Assembly: GCA_963930775.1 (NCBI GenBank)
Contig: OZ005690.1
Location: forward strand, 2,836,225-2,900,224
From: Cliona cf. orientalis
Taxonomy: Eukaryota; Porifera; Demospongiae; Clionaida; Clionaidae
Reading direction: 5' to 3'
Length of the DNA: 64,000 bases
A program made the position numbers and the translations under genes. Shown one piece after another: positions 11,253 through 25,135 of the stretch (positions are counted from its first letter, which is position 1; every line of letters begins with the position of its first letter). Under the pieces are notes generated by a model that was not told the DNA's origin, made no database searches, and worked only from the letters and a program-made list of their open reading frames with translations.

Positions 11253-11609
11253 GTCTCTAAGTTGTTCATTATCTCCCCAGTAGCAATTTACTTTTCTGTG
11301 GTTATGAGGTAATTGTGGTGTAATCTATGATGAAATTATGATGAAATTATGATGCAACCTATGAGGTAATTATGAAAAAATCCAGGGCCTCGCTGGAGCC
11401 TTTCTGGGACTTGAAAATCAGTAAATATGTAGAGTATCTTACGCGTGTATCCAGCGAATAGATTACAAGCTGAGCGCTACTTTCTCTGAGAAGTACTGTT
11501 GGTTGAACTTCACGTGTTTTCTTGGCTTACGTAATGCCGTGGATAAATAAAGCTACCCTTGCGCTATATATAGCACGCATCATTGTCACAAGGGGCTGGC
11601 CCGCGCGCG

Positions 11610-11943
11610 TATGGCGCGCCAAACGTAACAAAAATCAGAGCACGACGTTACGCGCTTTACCCCGCAATATTGCGACGTCCACCCCGCAATATTACGCGCT
11701 TCGGCGTTACGACGTCGTCAGATACTGACCCCGTCATATTACGGGGTCCGAGACACCGCGGTGTGTGGAAACCCCGTAATATTGCGCGGTCGGCCTGACG
11801 ACGTCGTTAGGTGATGACCCCGTCATATTGCGGGGTCAACTGAGAAGGACTTTTTAGCGACCCCGTAATATTGCGGGGTACCGTATCCGGTTCCAGATCC
11901 AATGCGGGTGCGCACTAATTGGATTGGTATAGGAATCAGACAT
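11610..11943 (+). repeat. Left terminal inverted repeat of the large transposon
   Basis: Reverse-complement match to 23115-23448 with few mismatches. It contains six degenerate copies of the palindrome ACCCCGYMATATTRCGSGGT and GACGACGTCGT-like segments, probably transposase binding sites. The inner end is followed by the HECT gene's 5' region. Confidence 0.9.
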
Positions 11944-12716
11944 CGCGGTCTATTTTCTGGTTGAAGATCACTATTTTGGCGCCGAAATCTTTCTTAAACA
12001 GTTGCCTGCAGCAGTATCCTGAAGTGACTCCTGAAATTCACTAGTCCTTGGGGAAAAATATGGCTGATGAAATTTTTGAATCTGGGGACGAGGAGGTTTA
12101 TTCATACAGGCTGCTAGCGTAATGTGCCAATTACCGACAGGTATCAACTATCGGAAGTACGGGTATCGATTATCGACATAGGGCCTTAGTATAGGCAGTG
12201 GGCGTGGCGCGTTTAATAATAACTTCGCGTGGTCGATTGCGACTCGCTTCTGTGCTTCAGGCTGGACTTTTGAAGGTAAGTTTTGCTTCATTTGTGATAA
12301 GATGACCCTCACAGTGTCTTACTTTCTCAATACAGGGGCAAAGACGCGATGGTGCTGTTCCCGAGGCGCTTCTGCCAAGATTGAAAAAACGATAAAGATC
12401 GAACAAGCTCACCTATGAACATGAAGTTGTCTCAGTAGTTAGAGCTCATGATTATGCACCTGCTAGTATTTTTTATATAATTTTCTTACTCTTGGATTGC
12501 ATGCACTGTGATGACAAAGCTCCAAGTGACGATAATTGATTGTATTGAAAGTATACGGTGTGCCGATAATACGTACCGACTGTTGATAATTGGCATTCGC
12601 AATTATAAGCTAAAATTGCCATTGCAGACGTATTTTGATAGGCAGCCCCCTGAGACTTTAGGTACTTGTAGCCCTGGCGACCCCCTACCTTTTGGTCCAA
12701 ATTCGAAGTTCAGGCG
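11944..12716. other. 5' region of the HECT gene
   Basis: Holds a short frame at 12060-12122 (MADEIFESGDEEVYSYRLLA) and a likely untranslated exon ending TTTTGAAG before GTAAGTTTTG at 12275, followed by an acceptor (TCTCAATACAG) near 12335. The promoter is probably in or next to the left terminal repeat. I could not join these pieces to the coding exons with certainty. Confidence 0.35.
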
Positions 12717-15700
12717 ATGTTCCTAAGCAACAGCACACGCGGGAGAAAACCGTATGTCGATAATTGGCACTTTACGCTACTTGAATGTGAAAGTTCCAAG
12801 AGAGTGGTGGAGATGCAATCCAAGATTGAACCTCTTCGATCTCGTCTACAAGAAGAAGTGCAGAAAATAGTAGGAGCCGAGATCGAGCTCGTATTAGATG
12901 TGGCTGAATACCGATGTAAAGTTGGAGCTGTCAAGCCAGGCTACCTTCTCCAGCGTTTATCCAGCGAATGGAATGAGTACGTGGATGTCGTTGATGCCAT
13001 CACCATAGGTACCAAAGACAAGTTAAAAGCAGTACGAATAAAGGCCATTTCTGATACGAAAAAGGTATAAATAAATAAATAGCTATGCATATTGGGCTAC
13101 CATCAAGTAAAAAATTATAGTGTACTGATTTTACAGGTTTTTTTTTGGGGGGGGGGGGGGGGTGGGGTGGGGTGGTGAGAATTCGTGGAGTATAGCTGTC
13201 AATATACACTTATTTGGTTTCTAGTGGTTCTCTGTTGCACATTAATTAAAGGCATTATGAGATATATCTGAGGACGTGCGAGGGTCGGTCATGCCAGATC
13301 AGATCAGCAACGAGTGAGAGTAATATATCTCAAGTAGCAGATTAGAGATGCATGTAATCTAGCTGCACTATGGGTGCCTTGTAGTGCATGAGGAGTACGC
13401 AATCATAGCATGTGTGATTTAAAATGACCCCCTATAGTCCACAGTTTTTCATATACTTGATCTCTAGCTTTTATTATAACACAATGCCTTTATATATTAT
13501 AAAGGCATGCAATCTAAGAGGATAATTATTATTTCCTGTGGTCACTAATTTCAGGAAGATACAGCTAGCAAGATTGAATCTATTATTTCCAAAGTGAAGA
13601 AGCCCACTAAGGAGGAAGCCAAGGTTTTGTCGAATCTGTTCCCTTCCAGTGGTTCTGGGTCTCGTAAACGACCAGTATTTGATCCTCACGATGAATGTAT
13701 TGCTGGGCCTTCACACTCGAAGAAAAAGAAGTTTGCAAAACCGACACAAAAGACAGCACCCAAACTTGCTAGTATAGAAGTTGTAGCATTGAAGAAATTC
13801 CAAACACGACTTCCCAAGGGAAGGGAGAGAAAGAAACTGCTTAGGGAAGGACGGATTATAAAGATTAAGCTAAGTCGTGATATGACGGCAGAGCAGGTTA
13901 AGCAGAGAATCACTGAAAATTTTGAAGATCTTCCTGGATTCTCCTACCTGGAAGTTGAAGATGGATATTTGGCTCGTTCTGATATGGATTTTAATGGTGA
14001 GAAGGCCGTCAACAGAAGGGGGGCCCTGTATATCTGTCAAACTAACAAGGTATGCTCATTTATACATACAGTGTGAATTATATACTTGTACCCAATTGAC
14101 AATGCTATGTTTAGGACTCCACGAGTAAACCCTCATCAGACCAAACCCAGAAGCATTCACCTAAGGTTTGTTTTATTTAATAAAGCCGTATACTTATGGC
14201 AGTACATGTATACCGTAGGTTAATTGCGTAGTTTAATAAAATAATGCCTTCTAGTCAAGTCAGGCCAAATTGCGAATCCAATAATTGCGATGGACGACCC
14301 CGTACTGTACTGTAGTATACGTGAACGTTTATGTTTGCGAATCTAATAATTGCGAAACGTAGAAAAACTCGCAATTCGCATTTAATAGATACTCACAATT
14401 AAAACCCGACCTACGGTATACATGTTACCATAGAATGCCACAGATGATATGGAAGTGATCAGCAGCGATGATGAATTTGAAAGGGTGGTGAGGAAGAAAT
14501 CACATCGCAAGGTTTGTATAAACATTAGGCTACACAAATGGTTTCTCATACTATTATAGAGATTTATGAAATGCAAAGGGGCAGCTCATTTTGATATTGC
14601 CATCAGTGTTTCACTTGGTCTATACTAATTCAAGTGATGACTCTGTGCTTATTAAGGTCAGGGTTCTCCCCAGGAAAATTTAATTATATATAGTGGAGGG
14701 GTATGGTTACATGGGGAGGAATTTGTGACCATGTCAGTTATTTTAGTTGCCACATCAGAAATGCGGATGTTTGAAGGCATAAGGGGGGGGGCACTCTGCT
14801 AAAGGCCACTGGGAGAAACGGATAGTATAAGTCAACACTGGGTGGGGATGAGAAACGTATAATTATTTTCTTATACCCTATTACTATCAGAAGGCTATGA
14901 TTGACCTGACGGAATCAGCAGAGAGTGGCTCTGATTCAGATACAATGATTAGGAGAACTACCAAAAAAGCTGATGATATTCTCAATTTCCTTGTAAGTTC
15001 GGTAGTCCCCATCTATGCATGTCAGGGGCTGATCCAGGGGGGGGGGGGGGGGGGGGGGGGGTGGAGGATAGGGTGGCTAGCCACCCCCTTCTTTTATGCA
15101 ACGTAGTATAGGAGATGTCCAGCATTATTAATCAGCCACCCCCCCTGCACCAGTATAGTTTACTATGGGTAGCCACCCCACCAGCCATGCACCTTCCATG
15201 CAAAATTTCTGGATCAGTGCCTGCATGTACAGTATATGCATGATATATATTATTACTGATGATCATAAGCAATATTAGAACATGTAGCCTAGAGTAAGGA
15301 TTCTACAGTGACAACAGTTATCGTAGTTTTTGGAATCACCTATAAAGCTATATATGTATATCATATATTATATATATAATATGCATAATCTCCAGAAGGC
15401 ACAAAAGCGGGCTACTTCAAGCTTTAATGATGATGAAGAAGATGATCTGCCTTCCTTTGATGTGTCATCAAATGTATGTTACTTTGTTAGTTATGTGCAT
15501 GTAAGAGGTCACTATATTATAATAATACTGTATTAATTTTGTGTGCACTAGATGAAAGAAGATATTTTGGAATTTCGTGCTATTCGCAATCAGCAGGATA
15601 AAGAGTATGAAGAGACACTCCGTGCCGACAAAGCAAAGGTACAATAGAAAGTTTAATCTGCATAATTATATTAATTTACTTGAATTCTTGCTTCATTATA

Positions 15701-18444
15701 CAGGTAGAAGAAAGGAAGCAAATTTTGGTACGTTTAGTGAATTCGGTATATGCTCCTTTACCTTTAATGTGGGATGTATGGATTTACTCTAGTGTCCCAG
15801 GAAATCTAGTCCAGGGTCTGACTCAGTGTAGCAATGTCTAGCTGTTCCCATGTATGCAATTTATATCCTTGGTAAGCACCCATGCCAACCAAAGTCATCT
15901 AAACGCCATGGGTACTCACTTGGGACACTACAGTGAACTATTATAAGTCATATGTGAGTTAATAATGGAAATTTTTGTTTAGGAAGAGGTGGCCAGAAAA
16001 GAAGAGGTATATAACAGGTTTATTTGAGAGTGCACTATAATTATGTTATTATACATCCATGATTTATAATTTTTATGAAGATACACCAATCTTTGAAGTC
16101 AAAGTGGCAAAGGGTGATGACTCGTTTGAGCTGCAATGAATCGGGATCTGATGGGTTTAAATTCACCATAAGGTACCCAACATCCAGGGTGGAGTGTTGT
16201 ATTCCTCAAGCTTCAACATCAAAGGTTTGTCCAAAATTAATAGCACATATATGTATAAGTTTGTTTGAGTATCCATCTATCAGCAACAGTAATGCATATG
16301 CTGTCCTAGCCTTACTTAATGGCATGCAAGGTCTGCCATTTCACATCGCTCAGTGTGTATGGGTGGCTATGCATTGTATGTGATGAAAGATACAACCGAA
16401 CTGGTATAGTAGTAGGGGACAAGTGAAGCAAGCCCCCCGCCCCTGTTTGTAATAACTGTACACAATTATTGTGTTATACAGGATCTCTATGAAGTTGCGT
16501 ATGCATTCTGTCCGGATTTCAACATGGATGCTTTTAAACTTTACATCATGATACCGAGGCAGTTCGTACCATTCACTGACACAAGCATAGGGGATTCAAA
16601 CTTCGGTTTGTCTCCTATTTTTGTCATAGAAGAAGGCACAGAAACGGTACCTTTCCTTTCAGATGAGGTTTGTATAGCCTATCCATGTATACATGCATAC
16701 AATTAATATCTGTACGTCTATGATGGAATGATACTCCTGACGTGTGGTCTGCATGTGGTACATGTGTGCTTGTGTCACTGTATGTGTATACACTTGTGTA
16801 TACAGTGGAACCCCTCTAAAGCGGACACCATTGGGACCAAAACTTTTGTCCGCTGTTACGGGTGTGGGGGTTTGAATATCTTGAAGTCTACGGAAATATA
16901 GTCCGGACATTCATAATTGTCCATTATATCGTAGGTGTCCACCGTTGAGGGGTGTTCGTTAAGCAGGGTTCCACTGTAATTATACTTACAATGTGTAATT
17001 ACGTAAGTGTGGATTATATTCGTGATTTGGTACACTCCTGTATATTAATTTTATGCACACAATCACAGAACATCTGTATCAGATCTACTGACGGTTACTC
17101 TACCATATTGGAATTGTGTAAGTTTTAGAATAGATATTAGCCTCATCCACCAGCCACTCCCTCTCATATAATATATGAGAGGGAGTTGCAACTGAAGAAT
17201 AATAATATTATTATTATTCTTCAGTTGCAACATGGTCTGGGGATGAGGCAAAATACATCATAATAGCTACACCTTTCCTTTTTAGAATTTTATATTGCAA
17301 ACATTTCTAGATACAGTGTGCTTCTTTTAGAAGTCATCTGATGTTATTGATTATTTTTACAGTGGCTGAAAAGACAGAAGATTTTATGAACACTCTAGAT
17401 GTTGGAATACAACGCCCTCATGTTGTCAATCGTGATCGACTCTTTGATGATGTGATTAAATTGTACAAAACAAAGTTCCTGGAGATCTTGAAGCAGTACC
17501 CTTTTTCAATTGCATATCAGAATGAGAAGGCTCATGACACTGGTGGAGTAAGCCGTGACATGTTTAGTCAGTTTTGGGATGAAGCTTGGTTGAAATGTTT
17601 TGATGGCGGGAGTATTTTGATTCCGGCAGTAAATCCTCATACTGATACCTCTCTATTTCCGGTCCTAGGCACTATATTATCCCATGGGTTTCTGGTATCA
17701 AATTTTCTACCGCTACGAATTGCTTTTCCTTCTCTGGCTGCTATGCTACTTGGCCCCACAATCCTAATCCCCGATTCCATTCTTGTTGATACTTTTGCCG
17801 ATTATCTGAGTACATACGAAAGTGTTTTCATTCATGAAATCCTTGTGTTATTGAAGGATCAACAACCACAAGTCTTTACAAATGAGCAAACAAAGACGCT
17901 TGTGGGTATTTTGAGCCGTATGGATTGTCGGGAAATACCTAATCCTACAAATCTGAGGCAATTGATTGTGCAGGTTGCAAAGCATGAATTTTTGACCAAG
18001 CCTTTGGGTGCTCTATATGCCTTTAATTCTGGTGTCCCTGCAATATATCACCCATTTTGGAAGGAGGTGACCATTGGAGAATTGTACTCGTGGTACAAGG
18101 CACTAAATGCCACTCCAAAGAGAGTTATTGAAAAGCTAGTGGAGAATGAAGACATGTCTGCTGCTGAGAGCAGAGTTTTCAAATTTCTTGTGACCTTTGT
18201 AGGTGATTTAAACCCAGAAGAGCTTCGCAACTTTCTACGCTATGTCACAGGTAGTTCTGTTCTCATCTGTGAGAGAATCAAAGTCACTTTCAATGGCGTT
18301 AGCGGCCTGGGGAGGAGTCCTGTTGGGCATACCTGTGATTGCTGGTTAGAATTATCGACTACCTACTACACTTATCCTGAATTTAAGCATGAATTTCTGA
18401 ACATTCTTAACAGTGCTGTGGCTTGGCCCATGGATGCAGTGTAG
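12717..18444 (+). CDS. Transposon-borne HECT E3 ubiquitin ligase, 12 or more exons
   Basis: Phase-0 exons with GT/AG borders: 12717-13064, 13555-14049, 14115-14165, 14434-14511, 14891-14992, 15396-15473, 15552-15638, 15704-15727, 15983-16006, 16081-16224, 16482-16667 and a terminal exon to 18444, about 895 residues in all. The last exon is a HECT domain: NRDRLFDDVIKLYK, GVSRDMFSQFWDEAW and the C-lobe GHTCDCWLELS, with catalytic Cys codon 18334-18336. HECT ligases pass ubiquitin through this Cys. Upstream, FTIRYPTSRVECCI...DLYEVAYAF resembles a ubiquitin-like or UBX-type fold, and acidic exons hold SUMO-interaction-like motifs (AMIDLTESAES, MEVISSDDEFE). The join to the HECT exon is uncertain: the best acceptor (17362) is out of phase, while one at 17373 keeps phase. 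The family resembles proteins often labelled 'G2/M phase-specific E3 ligase-like' in animals. Confidence 0.75.
13137..13178. repeat. Poly-T then long poly-G tract
   Basis: A T run followed by about 20 G with GGTGGGGTGGGG, in an intron of the HECT gene. One of several long G/C runs in the window. Confidence 0.8.
15023..15223. mobile_element. MITE in a HECT-gene intron (second copy of 3536-3720)
   Basis: Ends CAGGGGCTGATCC and GGATCAGTGCCTG, flanked by CATGT on both sides (15018-15022 and 15224-15228). Inverted relative to the copy at 3536-3720, and carries a G run of about 24. It lies in the intron between exons 14891-14992 and 15396-15473. Confidence 0.75.
16803..16976. mobile_element. 174-bp MITE with CAGTGGAACCC ends, TA target
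   Basis: Starts CAGTGGAACCCCTCTAAAG, ends GGGTTCCACTG, and TA lies on both sides. The ends are of the pogo/Tigger style. A diverged relative is at 57818-57995. It lies in the intron before the HECT exon. Confidence 0.75.
17141..17248. repeat. Compound palindrome (two nested hairpins)
   Basis: An outer pair CCTCATCC / GGATGAGG encloses two perfect hairpins: ACTCCCTCTCATAT with ATATGAGAGGGAGT (17156-17186), and GTTGCAACTGAAGAATAATA with its complement (17185-17231). This is likely a small fold-back element within the HECT intron. Confidence 0.65.
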
Positions 18445-19650
18445 TACACGCAATGTACAACTTATGGTGACAATTTATCATCAAGTAAACTGTAATACTG
18501 TTATGCAAGACAAAAATAAACAATGCCAGTATTAATAATTATTGTGTTGTGTATTATGTTATCATGAAAAATTTAATCTGAATCTGTTGCAACTGCTGAT
18601 TGTAAAAAAATAAGTGCTCTCTCATATAGGTCAATTCCGAAGTTATCACTATCACCGAGAGGATCAACAGTATCCTTCAGTTCTTCCAGCTGATCTTCAG
18701 ACAAGTTTAGTCGGCAAGGTGGTACTTCAACACCTTCATCATCATCATATGGGGTAACACCGTCCTCTTCTACTCCATAGTTGTCTGACACACGGTCAAA
18801 AAAATCTAGGGCAGATAGTCCAGACTCTCGCAGTCGCAATGCTCCTGCTGTAAACAGCTGAGATGGTGTAAATCCCTGCTCTGTACGAACCTTGTGGCTA
18901 TTCCAGGCATCCTTAAATTCCAGTAAGGATTTGTTTATGCGTGGCAAATAGACATAGTGAACAGCAAAGATGTGAATATCGTCAATAGGATTCAACAGGC
19001 CATGATACTCAAGGTAGTAAAATAATCGGTAGAATGTTACTGTAACACACACTGTAAAAAATGACTAGTGACCGTCACTACAAATATGTAGTGAAATGTT
19101 TGCCACAGATACCACCACTTTTGGTGTAGTGATGTTCACTACACAGGCTCTCACTACATAAAAATTAGGTGACGTTCACTACCAAATGTTGTGAGGTTCA
19201 CTACTAGATAATATGATTTTCACTACATACGTTTGTTTTGACAATCCAACTCAATAAAATTAATGACAAAAAAGAAGTCAGCAACAGTTAAGCAAGTATA
19301 GACAAATAGCATTTTCTAGAAAGCAGAAAGTAGTGTTTGTCATATTATTTTATTGCTTCATTAACATTGTTTTCAACAGTTTTGTTAACCTGAATTCTTG
19401 TCACCCGAGCTGTAGGGATAAAAACTGATAAAAAAATTAATCTTTTGCAGAGAAAAAGGGAGAAGAGAAAGAGAAAGGGGAGGGAGACAAGAGTTAAAAG
19501 AGAGGGAGCAGAGACAAGGGAAGAGGGGTGGTGAGACAGACAAGAATGAGAGAAGGAGAGGGAGAGAGAGAGAGAGGAGACAAGAGGAAAAAAAAAAGAG
19601 GGGGAGCAGAACAGAGAAAAACGAGGGAGGAGAGGTGGTAAGACAGACTA

Positions 19651-19928
19651 GTCTGGCGTGCCAGCCCATTCGCAAGAGGGAGGACTTCCGAAGGGTCTGG
19701 TGTCACGCCTATACACGATTTAACCTGTGGTAGGGACAACCCCAACCGTTTATTGAACAAGAAGAGTGGGCCTCTGATTGGTCGGCCTGCATACCAGTAG
19801 CCATACAATATTAGTGGTGACGTGGAGCGATCTGATTGAGCTGCACTCCTGGCTACAGCGGTACAAGTCGCGTATAGGCATGATACCAGACCCTTCCTCC
19901 CTCTTACGAAGGTGCTGGCCCGCCAGAC
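19651..19928. mobile_element. 278-bp MITE nested in the 2.7-kb element
   Basis: GTCTGGCGTGCCAGC at the left and GCTGGCCCGCCAGAC at the right, TA on both sides. The inverted arms continue inward (AAGAGGGAGGA, GGGTCTGGTGTCA, GCCTATAC). It is GC-rich relative to its GA-rich host and is the third level of nesting. Confidence 0.75.
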
Positions 19929-19989
19929 TAAAGACAGACAAGAATGAGAGGAGAGGAGAGGAAGGGAAGGAGAGAAAGAGGGAAAAGAC

Positions 19990-20659
19990 AGAGAGAGAGG
20001 AGACAAGAGGTAGAAACTGACATACCTGCATACTGTCAATAGGACCACAATCATATCAGCTTAAAAATTTGACAATTGAGCTGCAGAAATAAAGATGGTG
20101 ATACAAATCAGAGAGAATGAGGTCGGGGGGGGGGGGGGGGGGAGGTGGAGAGACAGACAGAGAGAGAGAGAGAGATGAGATGAAGTAAGAGGAAAAACTG
20201 ACATACCTACATGTTGTCAATGGCTTCATCATCATATCAACATAAATTTGAAGGCAGAGCTGCAGAAAAAAATGGGGAGGCAAATCAAAGGAGAGAGAGA
20301 GGAATAGGAAGAGAGATATAGGACAAAAGATAAAAAAAAGAGAGAGGGGGCAGAAATAGAGAGATGAAGGAAGAGAGTTAGTGAGACAGACAAGTCTGTA
20401 CGACAGAAGGGGAAGGGAGAGGGAGAGAGATAGAGAGGAGAGGTAGAAACTGACATACCTGCATGCCATCAACAGGTCCCACCATCGCATCAGCTTAAAA
20501 ATTTGACAACTGAGCTGCAGAGATAAAATGGGGATACAATCATAAATCAATTTAAAAGAGAGGGAGGAGGAAGAGGCATTAGAGAGAGCTAAACGAGATG
20601 AACGAGAGAGACAAGACAAGAGAAAATAAGCAGGAGGTGAAGGGGGCAGAAACAGAAAC

Positions 20660-20728
<69 letters not shown>

Positions 20729-20830
20729 GATGAGGTAAGAGGAGAAACTTACATACATACATGCTGTCAACAGCTGTATCATCATAGCAGTTTAAATTTG
20801 AAGGCTGAGCTGCAGAGATAAACTTTGGGG
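19990..20830. repeat. GA-rich tandem array with ACTGACATACCTGCAT / GAGCTGCAG units
   Basis: Four degenerate units of about 180-300 bp share ACTGACATACCTGCAT, TGTCAACAG, CATCATATCAGCTTAAA, TTTGACAA and GAGCTGCAG, separated by GAGAGA tracts of varied length. The starts are near 20016, 20196, 20449 and 20744. Confidence 0.7.
20664..20726. repeat. (GA)n microsatellite
   Basis: About 30 uninterrupted GA units. It generates false Leu/Ser ORFs on the minus strand. Confidence 0.95.
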
Positions 20831-23114
20831 AAGCAGATCAAAGGAAAGAGGGAGGAGGAGAAGAGAGAAAGGGAGAGAGAGGGGAGGGGAGGGGAGGGAG
20901 AGAGTGGATAAAGAAAGAGAGGGGGCAGAATGAGGGAGAAAGACAAAAATGAAATAAAACATGTAGCAAGGAGAAGATAAGTAGCTAGTATTTATCACTC
21001 CCCAAAAGCTTAGCAGAACAGCCTTTAAATCTAAATGTGATATGGGAGGGGTATACTTCGAACCAAAAGTATCAAACTTGTTAATAGCTACCTGGGATAC
21101 CAATGGAGTTTGTAACCAGTTTCCCCCAATAAATTGAGCTATGTTAAGACCATGCAGGTATAGAATAGAAGTGGTACTGTGACTGCGACAATATCCTCAC
21201 CTTGTAGCTACTAGTGTAGCACTTCTCTACAGCCATTTGATCTTCTAGTTGTGTTTTAGACCTACAGATATTCATACAAAACAAAAGAGAGGTAAAAAAT
21301 ATGAACTAAAAGGCTTACAAATATGTAGGTTCAGCTTAGGGTTCATGTATTAGCTATCTACTCTAAAAGATGTTCAAACTACAGCTACCTAGCTAGCATA
21401 CTCAGAACAGTCAACACCAAGTTTAGCTAACTCAATGGGTTCCACACCATTTACCTTTGTTATTTTTAATGACTTCAGAGTTCTCTGCCTTCTTTCACAC
21501 AGAATAAGCACTCTTCATGTCTTCTCCATTTTCAAATTTCAGCTGCAGCTGCCACTCGCTCATTAATATGCCCATGCGTGTTATGACGTCATTACAGTAT
21601 GTAGTGAACACTGGTGATTATTTGTAGTGAAGCTCACTACCCATACATTTCACTAAGAATAATTGTAGTGAACCACCTCTCAGTAGTGACCGTCACTACC
21701 AATATAATTTCACTACATGGTAGTGAAGGGCAAAATAGTGACGGTCACTACCTCATGTAGTGACAGTCACTAGTCATTTTTTACAGTGCAGCGATGCATG
21801 TCACGCCAAAGGCGTTCAATGCGCTGATTGTGCACTGAGCTTCCCACCAACACTGAACGCCTTTCACTTCCACGGTGGCGGAGCATATGCTGAGCTACAA
21901 GAATATTCTCACCACCTTGGTCACAACGAATCCGTGATGGTAGTCCGTAACGCTGCACTGCTTGAAGAAATAAATCGTATACAGTGGCAGCTTTGTTGTT
22001 AGTAGAGCACTTAATAAAGACTACAAGTCTACTGTATCCATCAATTGAGCAGTGAGTGACAAAACGCCATCTAATTAACTTGTGGTGGCCATCTAAGAGG
22101 TAATAGACACCAGTCAGTATATACTATTAAATTTTGTATAAGATATAAAGCCTTGAAGCAACACACTGCTTGTATATCCCCACTGTCATGCAGAAAATTT
22201 AATTATTGAATTCATGAAGTACTATTGACTATTAATCTTGTACTTTTTTTGCATTCATTCCCTTGGGCCACCAAGGCGTGCCATTCTTCCTCCCTTTCAA
22301 CCCCCCCCCCCCCCCACTTACTTTTAGGGCCAGATAAAAGTGATGCTAATGCAACATACCTAAGTGCCACAATGAATTGGGCCCAGGCACAGAATACGGC
22401 TGTCGTTGGATAACATCACCTCTCCAGCGAAGAGCAGTGTACAAAGGATCAGTGACCCGAATAGCTCGCCGTACTCTTTCCCTAGTAACATTGAAGCCCA
22501 TTGACCTTAATCTTCCCCAAACCATTGTCTGTCCCATAGATGGGTGTTCTCTGCGCATGGATGTCAGGAGAAGTTTGAGTTCATTGTCTGAAAGAGTACC
22601 ACTAACAGACTGAACCATTTGAAACTCCACGCGTCGGCGGTAGACAGTCATATGTGATACTCCCAGCATTCTAGCAATCTGAGTCCACGTAAAAGACATC
22701 GAAGCCAAGAATTCAAGCTGCTCTCTTGTTATATCAAATTTGGGTCTTCCCCTCCTAGAGGTGTGAATACTTGAGGCAGTGTAGGAAGTTGTGCAACTCA
22801 GCTGCATGCATCTATCATTGTGTGCTTCCCACTGCTGTGATAATTCCCTCAGACAGGATAGTAGTTCAGTCAGTTTCGTCGAGTAGTCCTCAAACACAGC
22901 AGATTCGGCATCACTGTTTGGCGAAGCATGGTCAATATGATGTACTAGGGATGATAAACTCAGAATGGATGTTTGTATACGCTCCAGAGCATACTCGGAA
23001 AAAGATTGGTTGGCTGTTCCTGACTGCCGATCACAGGTACGAATGAATGCTGCTAATTCTTCAAAGAATCGTTCCCAGCCTAGCAGAGAATATGCCATAA
23101 TTTTATGCTACACA

Positions 23115-23448
23115 ATGTCTGATTCCTATACGAATCCAATTAGTGCGCACCCGCATTGGATCTGGAACCGGATACGGTACCCCGCAATATTACGGGGTCG
23201 CTAAAAAGTCCTTCTCAGTTGACCCCGCAATATGACGGGGTCATCACCTAACGACGTCGTCAGGCCGACCGCGCAATATTACGGGGTTTCCACACACCGC
23301 GGTGTCTCGGACCCCGTAATATGACGGGGTCAGTATCTGACGACGTCGTAACGCCGAAGCGCGTAATATTGCGGGGTGGACGTCGCAATATTGCGGGGTA
23401 AAGCGCGTAACGTCGTGCTCTGATTTTTGTTACGTTTGGCGCGCCATA
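23115..23448 (-). repeat. Right terminal inverted repeat of the large transposon
   Basis: Mirror of 11610-11943, with the same series of ACCCCGYAATATTRCGGGGT palindromes. The integrase ATG lies 17 bp inside its inner edge, so the repeat is likely to contain the integrase promoter. Confidence 0.9.
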
Positions 23449-23454
23449 CGCGCG

Positions 23455-23809: not shown

Positions 23810-25135
23810 TCAGCAAGAAACTTTGAAGATCAAAGAATCACTAATTTTGAAATACTTGGGATGAAGGTCCTTATGTGCAATGAAAGTGTATGTGCCCCAG
23901 CCCTCGTTCTCATCTTCATCAATAACTTGACCAGAATTCCTTTGTGGTGTTTCTTCATTGTAGCTAATATCTACACTCCAGTGTTGGTCACCTTCTTGAT
24001 CAAGCAATGTAATGTTCAGGGAGCCATGAAAGGGCCACTTCAGCTGATGATCAAATTCACCACGCATTATTACAAAGAAAACTGATATGTGTGTTCCTTC
24101 ACCTATACCATAACCATTGACATCAACATTTAAGCACATCTTATAACCTTGTAAATGAGTGTAGAAAGGCCGGCTGTCCCATGTATCTCCACTTTCTCTC
24201 TTAGACGCATATTTGTCCAATACGAGCTGCACGGGGGCTATCTGCACATGTGATTTCAGCTTCTTAATTTCATCTTCAAGATCTAGAACACGAGCTTCCA
24301 GTTTCTCCAACATTTTTTGATGGTCAACAGTCTGTAGTGACAAATGAGCTGTCAAATCAGCACTGATGTGAGCTGGCAAGTCTTTGCGAGGTAACCTTGT
24401 CCCACAGCCAGTGAAACTAAAGGAACAGTTAATAACTTCTAGCGGGCAATCTTTAGCGAGATGCTTTGATAGACCCTTGAATTCAGTGGTCGCACCACAC
24501 TTGTTGGAACAAGGCACCAAACGTGAAGGACAAACAGGCTTATGACTGGTTGTGACTTCCTCGAAAGTAGACTTGTAATTATTGCAAATCTCACAGCAAA
24601 ACGGCCGCTTGGGACATAGCTTTGTTTTGTGCACTTCAATAAAACGACGCCCAAATGTTTCTCGACAGTGCGGGCAGTCTATTGGAACAAAGTGACAAAT
24701 ATTATCATCAGCTTGAACTGAATTGGACGGTGCACATGCACTTCCAGTGATGTCTAAGGAAATATGCTGAGTCAGCGTTCCCAGCTCACCCACCCATTCA
24801 CAACCAGACGTCTTATACGAACAGTAGACTTGCAAAGAGTTCAAGGTACGATTTAATCGGCGATTAGGAATAGCTGTGGTGAATGGCCCATTGCAGAGAG
24901 GACATGGCTTCCCTTCAGACTTGATAGGCTGTATGCAAGTACGGCAAAAGCTTGAGCCACAGTCACAGTCGATGAGATGTGGCTCTTTGAGAATAGATAG
25001 GCACACGGAGCATTCAGTTTGAAGGTGCTTGGGTGGCTCTTCGACGAAGACGCACTCGTGTCCTCCCTGGAGGTGAGATCTCTTTTGGTTCTGGGAGACT
25101 TCAACGGATTCAGCACAGCCACTGCTTCCTTCCAT
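23810..25135 (-). CDS. TRAF-C: RING / TRAF zinc finger / MATH adaptor
   Basis: Intronless, 441 residues, same architecture as TRAF-A and TRAF-B: RING at 42-81 (CSVC, CDCGSSFC, CPLC), TRAF zinc fingers, coiled coil (MLEKLEARVLDLEDEIKKLK), MATH from about 300 (SRPFYTHLQGYKM). It has a 5-6 residue insertion between zinc fingers (SACAPSNSVQ) and ends at FKVSC, about 6 residues shorter than its paralogs because of a premature stop after KVS. It is the most diverged intact member. Start chosen by paralog match and the upstream CRE block. Confidence 0.88.
   Translation of the reverse strand: MEGSSGCAESVEVSQNQKRSHLQGGHECVFVEEPPKHLQTECSVCLSILKEPHLIDCDCGSSFCRTCIQPIKSEGKPCPLCNGPFTTAIPNRRLNRTLNSLQVYCSYKTSGCEWVGELGTLTQHISLDITGSACAPSNSVQADDNICHFVPIDCPHCRETFGRRFIEVHKTKLCPKRPFCCEICNNYKSTFEEVTTSHKPVCPSRLVPCSNKCGATTEFKGLSKHLAKDCPLEVINCSFSFTGCGTRLPRKDLPAHISADLTAHLSLQTVDHQKMLEKLEARVLDLEDEIKKLKSHVQIAPVQLVLDKYASKRESGDTWDSRPFYTHLQGYKMCLNVDVNGYGIGEGTHISVFFVIMRGEFDHQLKWPFHGSLNITLLDQEGDQHWSVDISYNEETPQRNSGQVIDEDENEGWGTYTFIAHKDLHPKYFKISDSLIFKVSC

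Follow-up and report, generated by a model that had tools for sequence, protein, structure and literature searches.

The DNA considered here is a window of 64,000 nucleotides from the sponge Cliona cf. orientalis (GCA_963930775.1, contig OZ005690.1, positions 2,836,225 to 2,900,224), that is, the whole stretch that was analysed, and its subject is an inserted element at 11604-23454 that carries a gene for a HECT-type ubiquitin ligase (E3) opposite a gene for a DDE transposase. What the window holds is one decayed copy of a transposon with two genes. Taken together, the evidence argues strongly for a DNA transposon of the IS3EU type whose HECT protein is predicted to act for the element. Because the HECT-transposase pair recurs in diverged copies throughout the genome, the ligase has the appearance of a functional component of the transposon rather than of a stray passenger.

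A bounded insertion with two convergent genes

The element is delimited by two inverted arms of 340 nucleotides each (11604-11943 and 23115-23454), rated 100% complementary by the repeat search, the outermost 6 nucleotides of which are the palindromic CGCGCG, and the terminal inverted repeats (TIRs) proper are 334 bp long (11610-11943 and 23115-23448), with 1 mismatch in 334. The host sequence at the insertion site is a dispersed repeat that is found uninterrupted elsewhere: when the two flanks are joined with one CGCGCG, the resulting sequence is 100% identical over 200 bp to C10:16424-16623, and all 40 empty-site candidates scored, of 1986, cross the junction at 96-100% identity. The window element is therefore a real insertion, and the single CGCGCG of the empty site shows that its 6-bp repeat arose as a target duplication. 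The TIRs differ in composition from their surroundings, with a GC content of 0.54 and a CpG observed/expected ratio of 1.61. Over the leftmost 11 kb of the window, GC content is 0.39 and the CpG ratio 0.52; over the element interior as far as 19049, they are 0.40 and 0.56. Six near-palindromes of the type ACCCCGTAATATTGCGGGGT lie within the window TIR and are taken as likely binding sites.

Two genes are found inside the TIRs, HECT on the forward strand and the transposase on the reverse strand; they are convergent, the start of each adjoins one TIR, and the matched ends of their last exons are about 140 bp apart. The features of the element are the following:

11604-11609, no strand: left target-site duplication, CGCGCG, single copy in the empty site
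11610-11943, no strand: left TIR, 334 bp, begins TATGGCGCGCC
12060-12114, plus: HECT exon 1, 5' part, ATG at 12060, MADEIFESGDEEVYSYRL..; exon uninterrupted in L009 and L010
12115-12779, no strand: nested insertion with 25-bp inverted ends and a probable TA duplication, missing from L009 (C3) and L010 (C5)
12780-13070, plus: HECT exon 1, 3' part, end approximate
13594-14076, plus: second long HECT exon, open frame, approximate splice limits
15588-15638, plus: short HECT motif NQQDKEYEETLRADKAK, kept in three diverged families
16153-16523, plus: two HECT exon pieces at the position of the UBX domain of L021
17341-18444, plus: last HECT exon, HECT domain, 367 aa
18573-19049, minus: transposase exon 2, 3' part, beyond the nested element
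19050-21788, no strand: nested 2.74-kb element with ends CACTGTAAAAAATGACTAG.. and 33-bp inverted repeats, missing from L009 (C3) and L010 (C5)
21789-22092, minus: transposase exon 2, 5' part, encoding the second D and the E of the DDE triad
22360-23098, minus: transposase exon 1, ATG at 23098, weak helix-turn-helix matches
23115-23448, no strand: right TIR
23449-23454, no strand: right target-site duplication, CGCGCG, single copy in the empty site

The 12115-12779 insertion disrupts HECT exon 1, and the 19050-21788 element disrupts transposase exon 2, separating its 5' part from its 3' part; with two nested insertions, one per gene, the window copy is therefore non-autonomous in its present state. 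Reading frames are open in the transposase pieces on either side of the nested element and in the HECT exon. The original prediction, made from the window alone, is thus confirmed as to the near-perfect inverted repeats of about 334 bp, the CGCGCG direct repeat at both ends, now recognised as a target duplication, and the two convergent genes beginning near one TIR each (at 12060 and 23098). As to its single unit of 11.8 kb, the one TIR-bounded two-gene element stands, but the length does not, being inflated by the two nested insertions (intact copies measure 8.1 kb). The nested element at 19050-21788 has CACTG..CAGTG ends, which resemble those of EnSpm/CACTA elements, and abundant GA simple repeats. 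Immediately beside the window element, at 23810-25135, there is a 441-aa open frame with a TRAF zinc finger and MATH domains, the N-terminus of which is RING-like, with a RING score under the cut-off.

Regarding the transposase, the 3' part in the window matches the Pfam integrase core rva_4 (3e-22), and the codon of the first D of the DDE triad is divided by the intron. The transposase of L009, the copy on C3, was modelled with two exons (exon 1 to 1600, exon 2 from 1884), giving 505 aa free of stops with D247, D304, and E339, separated by 56 and 34 residues. Its exon 2 matches rva_4 (PF24764) at 3.2e-76; its match to rve (7.1e-7, 29.9 bits) stays below the cut-off of 32.6. The helix-turn-helix matches of the N-terminal exon are weak and all under cut-offs, and a search of the PDB with the transposase profile returned one irrelevant match and no integrase.

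As for the HECT gene, its last exon encodes a catalytic-type Cys within GHTC (codon 18334-18336), and the window protein matches Pfam HECT (3.9e-5) with 23.9 bits, which just equals the gathering score, the same domain being above the cut-off in L021 (33.6 bits) and L022 (29 bits). A five-row HECT profile recovers HUWE1 (1.9e-8) and NEDD4L (3e-7) over almost the full length of the domain; both the N- and the C-lobe are detectable, the catalytic-type cysteine is aligned with that of HUWE1 and NEDD4L, and the TC motif is invariant in the five rows. The conserved domain and the catalytic-type cysteine point to a putative active E3 ligase. Ahead of the HECT domain, a motif R..QQD/EQD..Y..SL..D is common to the C3, C6, and C4 families; a PDB search with this short QQD-type motif gave no match, and an AlphaFold2 model of the window HECT exon alone, with a mean pLDDT (predicted local distance difference test) of 42, was not interpreted.

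Copies of the element and pairing of the two genes

A genome search with the TIR gave 40 rows, from which eight two-TIR copies (window included) and three further places were read, the remaining rows being weak. Both genes are present in three of the eight (window, C3, and C5). The copies on C3 (L009) and C5 (L010) are unbroken two-gene elements of about 8.1 kb, with no stops in the exons read. Those on C16 and C10 are short derivatives in which fragments of the two genes remain, and those on C12, C19, and C6 correspond to a 2.4-kb form devoid of either gene, enlarged by inserted DNA on C12 and C6. L019 and L020 are TIR fragments that are not bounded by two TIRs. In addition, a more distant element on C4 (L021) is complete at 5,994 bp, with TIRs of about 300-360 bp that are 81% identical, and carries both genes: its transposase is a single-exon frame of 479 aa, 43% identical to that of the window family, and its HECT protein is 30% identical to the window family's.

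All nine complete copies, that is, the eight two-TIR copies and L021, have TATGG..CCATA ends and 6-bp duplications (CGCGCG, CGATCG, CGCCCT, GGCCCG, CGTACG, CGCATG, CGCACG, CGGCCT, and, in L021, GCCGGT). Empty sites of the C3 copy, 100% identical over 120 bp, are present in both L013 and L024, and L028 has one for L011 (100%). L011, a 1.8-kb relative on C16, lies in the same host repeat as the window element, at an adjacent 6-bp site with the duplication GGCCCG. The co-mobilisation of integrase and HECT ligase put forward by the original prediction is supported by the TIR-bounded two-gene copies on C3, C5, and in L021, by the empty sites of the window and C3 copies, and by the convergent pairing described below. 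Further copies with the same TIRs and both genes, which it had suggested looking for, do exist on C3 and C5, and the comparison with empty sites bore out a 6-bp duplication for the window element, L009, and L011. An integrase enclosed alone by such TIRs, which would have spoken against its proposal, is found in none of the eight two-TIR copies of the window TIR family.

The 17.3-kb copy on C12 (L013 and L014) was considered as a transposase swap under the same TIRs and rejected, its outer parts matching the 2.4-kb non-autonomous L015. It contains two inserted stretches with their own inverted repeats, of about 600 and 435 bp. At this place (C12:1869139-1887480), the inserts measure 8.6 kb and 4.9 kb; frames of the former resemble a KDZ-type transposase, and a 905-aa frame of the latter has no Pfam match above the cut-off.

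At the scale of the genome, matches were clustered into at least 77 transposase loci, weaker transposase fragments being excluded, and at least 72 HECT loci; these counts are lower bounds, as the best candidates were scored (for rva_4, the best 150 of 204). Convergent HECT-transposase pairs within 1.3 kb are observed at 25 of the 72 HECT loci, compared to a single pair in another orientation, and their number reaches 27 within 4 kb. Circular shifts of the HECT loci (2000 runs, with contig sizes partly estimated) gave a mean of 0.13 pairs and a maximum of 3, by which chance pairing of the two genes is ruled out. No transposase locus lies within 12 kb of 42 of the HECT loci, and these include the five with the best Pfam HECT matches, as would be expected for host genes. 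With respect to their distribution, 46 of the 77 transposase loci, many of them degraded, lie on C1 beyond 16 Mb, in the transposon-dense half of this 37.5-Mb contig. Scans of viral contigs with the transposase and HECT alignments yielded 26 and 95 stretches fitting the pattern, respectively, none of which was confirmed.

Several observations weigh against a HECT gene that belongs to the transposon. The Pfam HECT score of the window family is marginal. A one-ended copy of the window TIR family at C1:19904902 (L017/L018), not bounded by two TIRs, has the transposase side and one TIR without any HECT match. Besides, the HECT comparison between window and C3 gives a ratio of nonsynonymous to synonymous change (dN/dS) of 0.34, with few changes. 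Of the 25 pairs, two (C16 and C10) are deletion derivatives, and recent duplication accounts for several others (C3/C5/window; C6 with two on C9 and one on C11; C19/C11), so that independent pairs are fewer. Moreover, 44 of the 77 transposase loci, many of which are fragments, have no HECT match within 12 kb. One lineage is represented by C1:16772632 and C4:5066843, which are about 55% identical and have an open transposase core exon; no HECT was found in the approximately 7 kb that were read downstream of them, where a different open frame follows and no element boundaries were recognised. Nor was HECT found in the roughly 4 kb read at C1:30294105, which has a 473-aa open frame. Since HECT is not detected at these transposase loci with open frames, the ligase is not retained in every lineage: HECT is a common, not a universal, partner of the transposase.

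Two observations on these loci may be added. In the transposase lineage without detected HECT (L023 with L046, and L045), a long open frame on the opposite strand has a repetitive TTGKSVTQQSGSGRPPG-type region. Beside the truncated copy on C1, L017 345-5473 shows large Helitron-like open frames (an OTU-type region and a helicase, recognised by eye).

Selection and the possible role of the HECT protein

The HECT families compared for selection (12 sequences, two of them with one stop each, which was skipped) are 26-55% identical. Between families, the proportion of synonymous differences is 0.71-0.86, hence saturated, and that of nonsynonymous differences 0.31-0.54; for the C6/C9 pair, the HECT dN/dS is 0.125. 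HECT and transposase both show purifying selection. In addition, HECT distances among seven families are correlated with those of the transposase (Mantel r 0.80, a value reached in 3 of 5040 permutations), several rows being partial and L009 representing the transposase of the window family. This correlated divergence is consistent with a HECT gene kept alongside its transposase.

In the mechanism proposed for the element, the transposase would bind the palindrome-rich TIRs, then cut and paste the element, and the HECT protein, made from the element, would work in trans in the nucleus. There, it would ubiquitylate a protein that limits the element, which could be a factor involved in silencing or repair, or else the transposase. 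A nuclear factor limiting the element through silencing or repair is the favoured target, followed by the transposase.

Autoregulation is common among transposons, and the ligase might instead lower the transposase level, acting as a copy-number brake that limits host damage. Convergent genes and correlated divergence would indeed suit two interacting proteins. However, lineages without detected HECT keep open transposase frames, and it can be argued that a brake brings little short-term gain to the element, which makes this explanation rather unlikely.

A further alternative arises from the L021 lineage, in which two exons from the middle of the gene, upstream of HECT and joined across a GT-AG intron, together match UBX (PF00789, 1.6e-8, 35.1 bits for a cut-off of 21). 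UBX domains link to p97/Cdc48, and ClpX is known to remove the Mu transposase from joined DNA ends. By analogy, the HECT protein of the UBX lineage at least could ubiquitylate the DNA-bound transposase and recruit the p97/Cdc48 unfoldase to remove it from the joined ends. The Pfam match, the short motif kept ahead of UBX in three families, and a three-row profile led by L021, which recovers UBX domain-containing protein 1, FAF1, and other UBX proteins (at 3.6e-4 or weaker), all speak for this possibility. However, the second UBX exon of L021 alone has no Pfam match, and in a PDB search with the single L021 sequence, ubiquitin chains (1.1e-5) rank over FAF1 (0.0071). The corresponding region of the window and C6 families resembles that of L021 weakly (19% and 16% identity, respectively); the window family has no UBX match in Pfam, and without L021 the window and C6 families recover nothing significant (best UBX chain at E 1.5). 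Besides, the usual p97-binding loop motif of UBX is FPR, and this loop is not intact in L021, which has VPH in its place. The sequence evidence thus supports a UBX domain for the L021 lineage, that of the window family being uncertain. Compared to FAF1 and the UBXD proteins, which are p97 adaptors, L021 shares the UBX domain but carries it upstream of HECT in one gene. Removal of the transposase from joined ends is regarded as quite improbable, and the broader idea that a transposon-borne ligase, joined to UBX in one lineage, might pull the transposase or silencing proteins off chromatin, much as Mu uses ClpX, is likewise held with little confidence.

Transposons often capture pieces of host genes, and HECT could in principle be such a fragment, carried without function; its faster divergence than that of the transposase (dN of 0.47 vs 0.27 between C3 and C6) would fit. 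Between HECT families, however, synonymous change is saturated while nonsynonymous change is constrained, the TC motif is found in all five aligned sequences, and the position and orientation relative to the transposase are constant in 25 loci, all of which renders a functionless fragment highly improbable. Finally, although the window locus does contain nested insertions, two unrelated repeats nested there by chance are hardly conceivable given 25 HECT loci with the convergent pair vs 1 otherwise, the circular-shift mean of 0.13, and the further two-gene copies found inside TIRs. A ligase that would act for the transposon is therefore the preferred reading.

Relation to known IS3EU elements

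IS3EU elements are described as having TA..TA ends and usually 6-bp duplications (PMC10045372), and as encoding a DDE transposase related to IS3/IS481 (PMC10045372, PMC12730594), the ends in rust fungi being TAYGG..CCRTA (PMC12730594). The sponge element shares the 6-bp duplication, the TA..TA ends, and the DDE transposase of this IS3EU/GingerRoot superfamily, so that the family assignment of the original prediction agrees with the published hallmarks; the match is by these hallmarks, not by a tree. In the TET+ IS3EU elements of rust fungi, transposase and alpha-kinase genes lie opposite each other with TET/JBP between (PMC12730594). They thereby likewise oppose the transposase to a second enzyme gene, which is an alpha-kinase there and a HECT E3 here. 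Styx of Zymoseptoria is a 7.9-kb element with four genes, said to descend from a two-protein IS3EU element (PMC10853768); unlike the HECT gene of the sponge element, its extra genes have GATA, CCHC, and DUF3577 domains. The sponge element is a variant of the fungal IS3EU plan, with HECT replacing the alpha-kinase opposite the transposase.

With cellular HECT E3 enzymes (HUWE1 and the NEDD4 family), the sponge protein shares the lobes and the catalytic-type cysteine, but it is far diverged and transposon-borne. The words HECT and ubiquitin are absent from the main text of PMC10045372, and ubiquitin from that of PMC12730594; a literature search, the scope of which did not include Repbase, supplements, and preprints, found no HECT in IS3EU.

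The element thus presents a ubiquitin ligase kept by selection, as the comparisons suggest, in a DNA transposon across deep divergence, beside an integrase-type transposase. Together with the fungal alpha-kinase, the HECT gene suggests that IS3EU carries an exchangeable second signalling enzyme. This raises a testable question, namely whether the element must control protein turnover to move or to evade silencing. Multicopy HECT genes in genome annotations may, in turn, be transposon genes.

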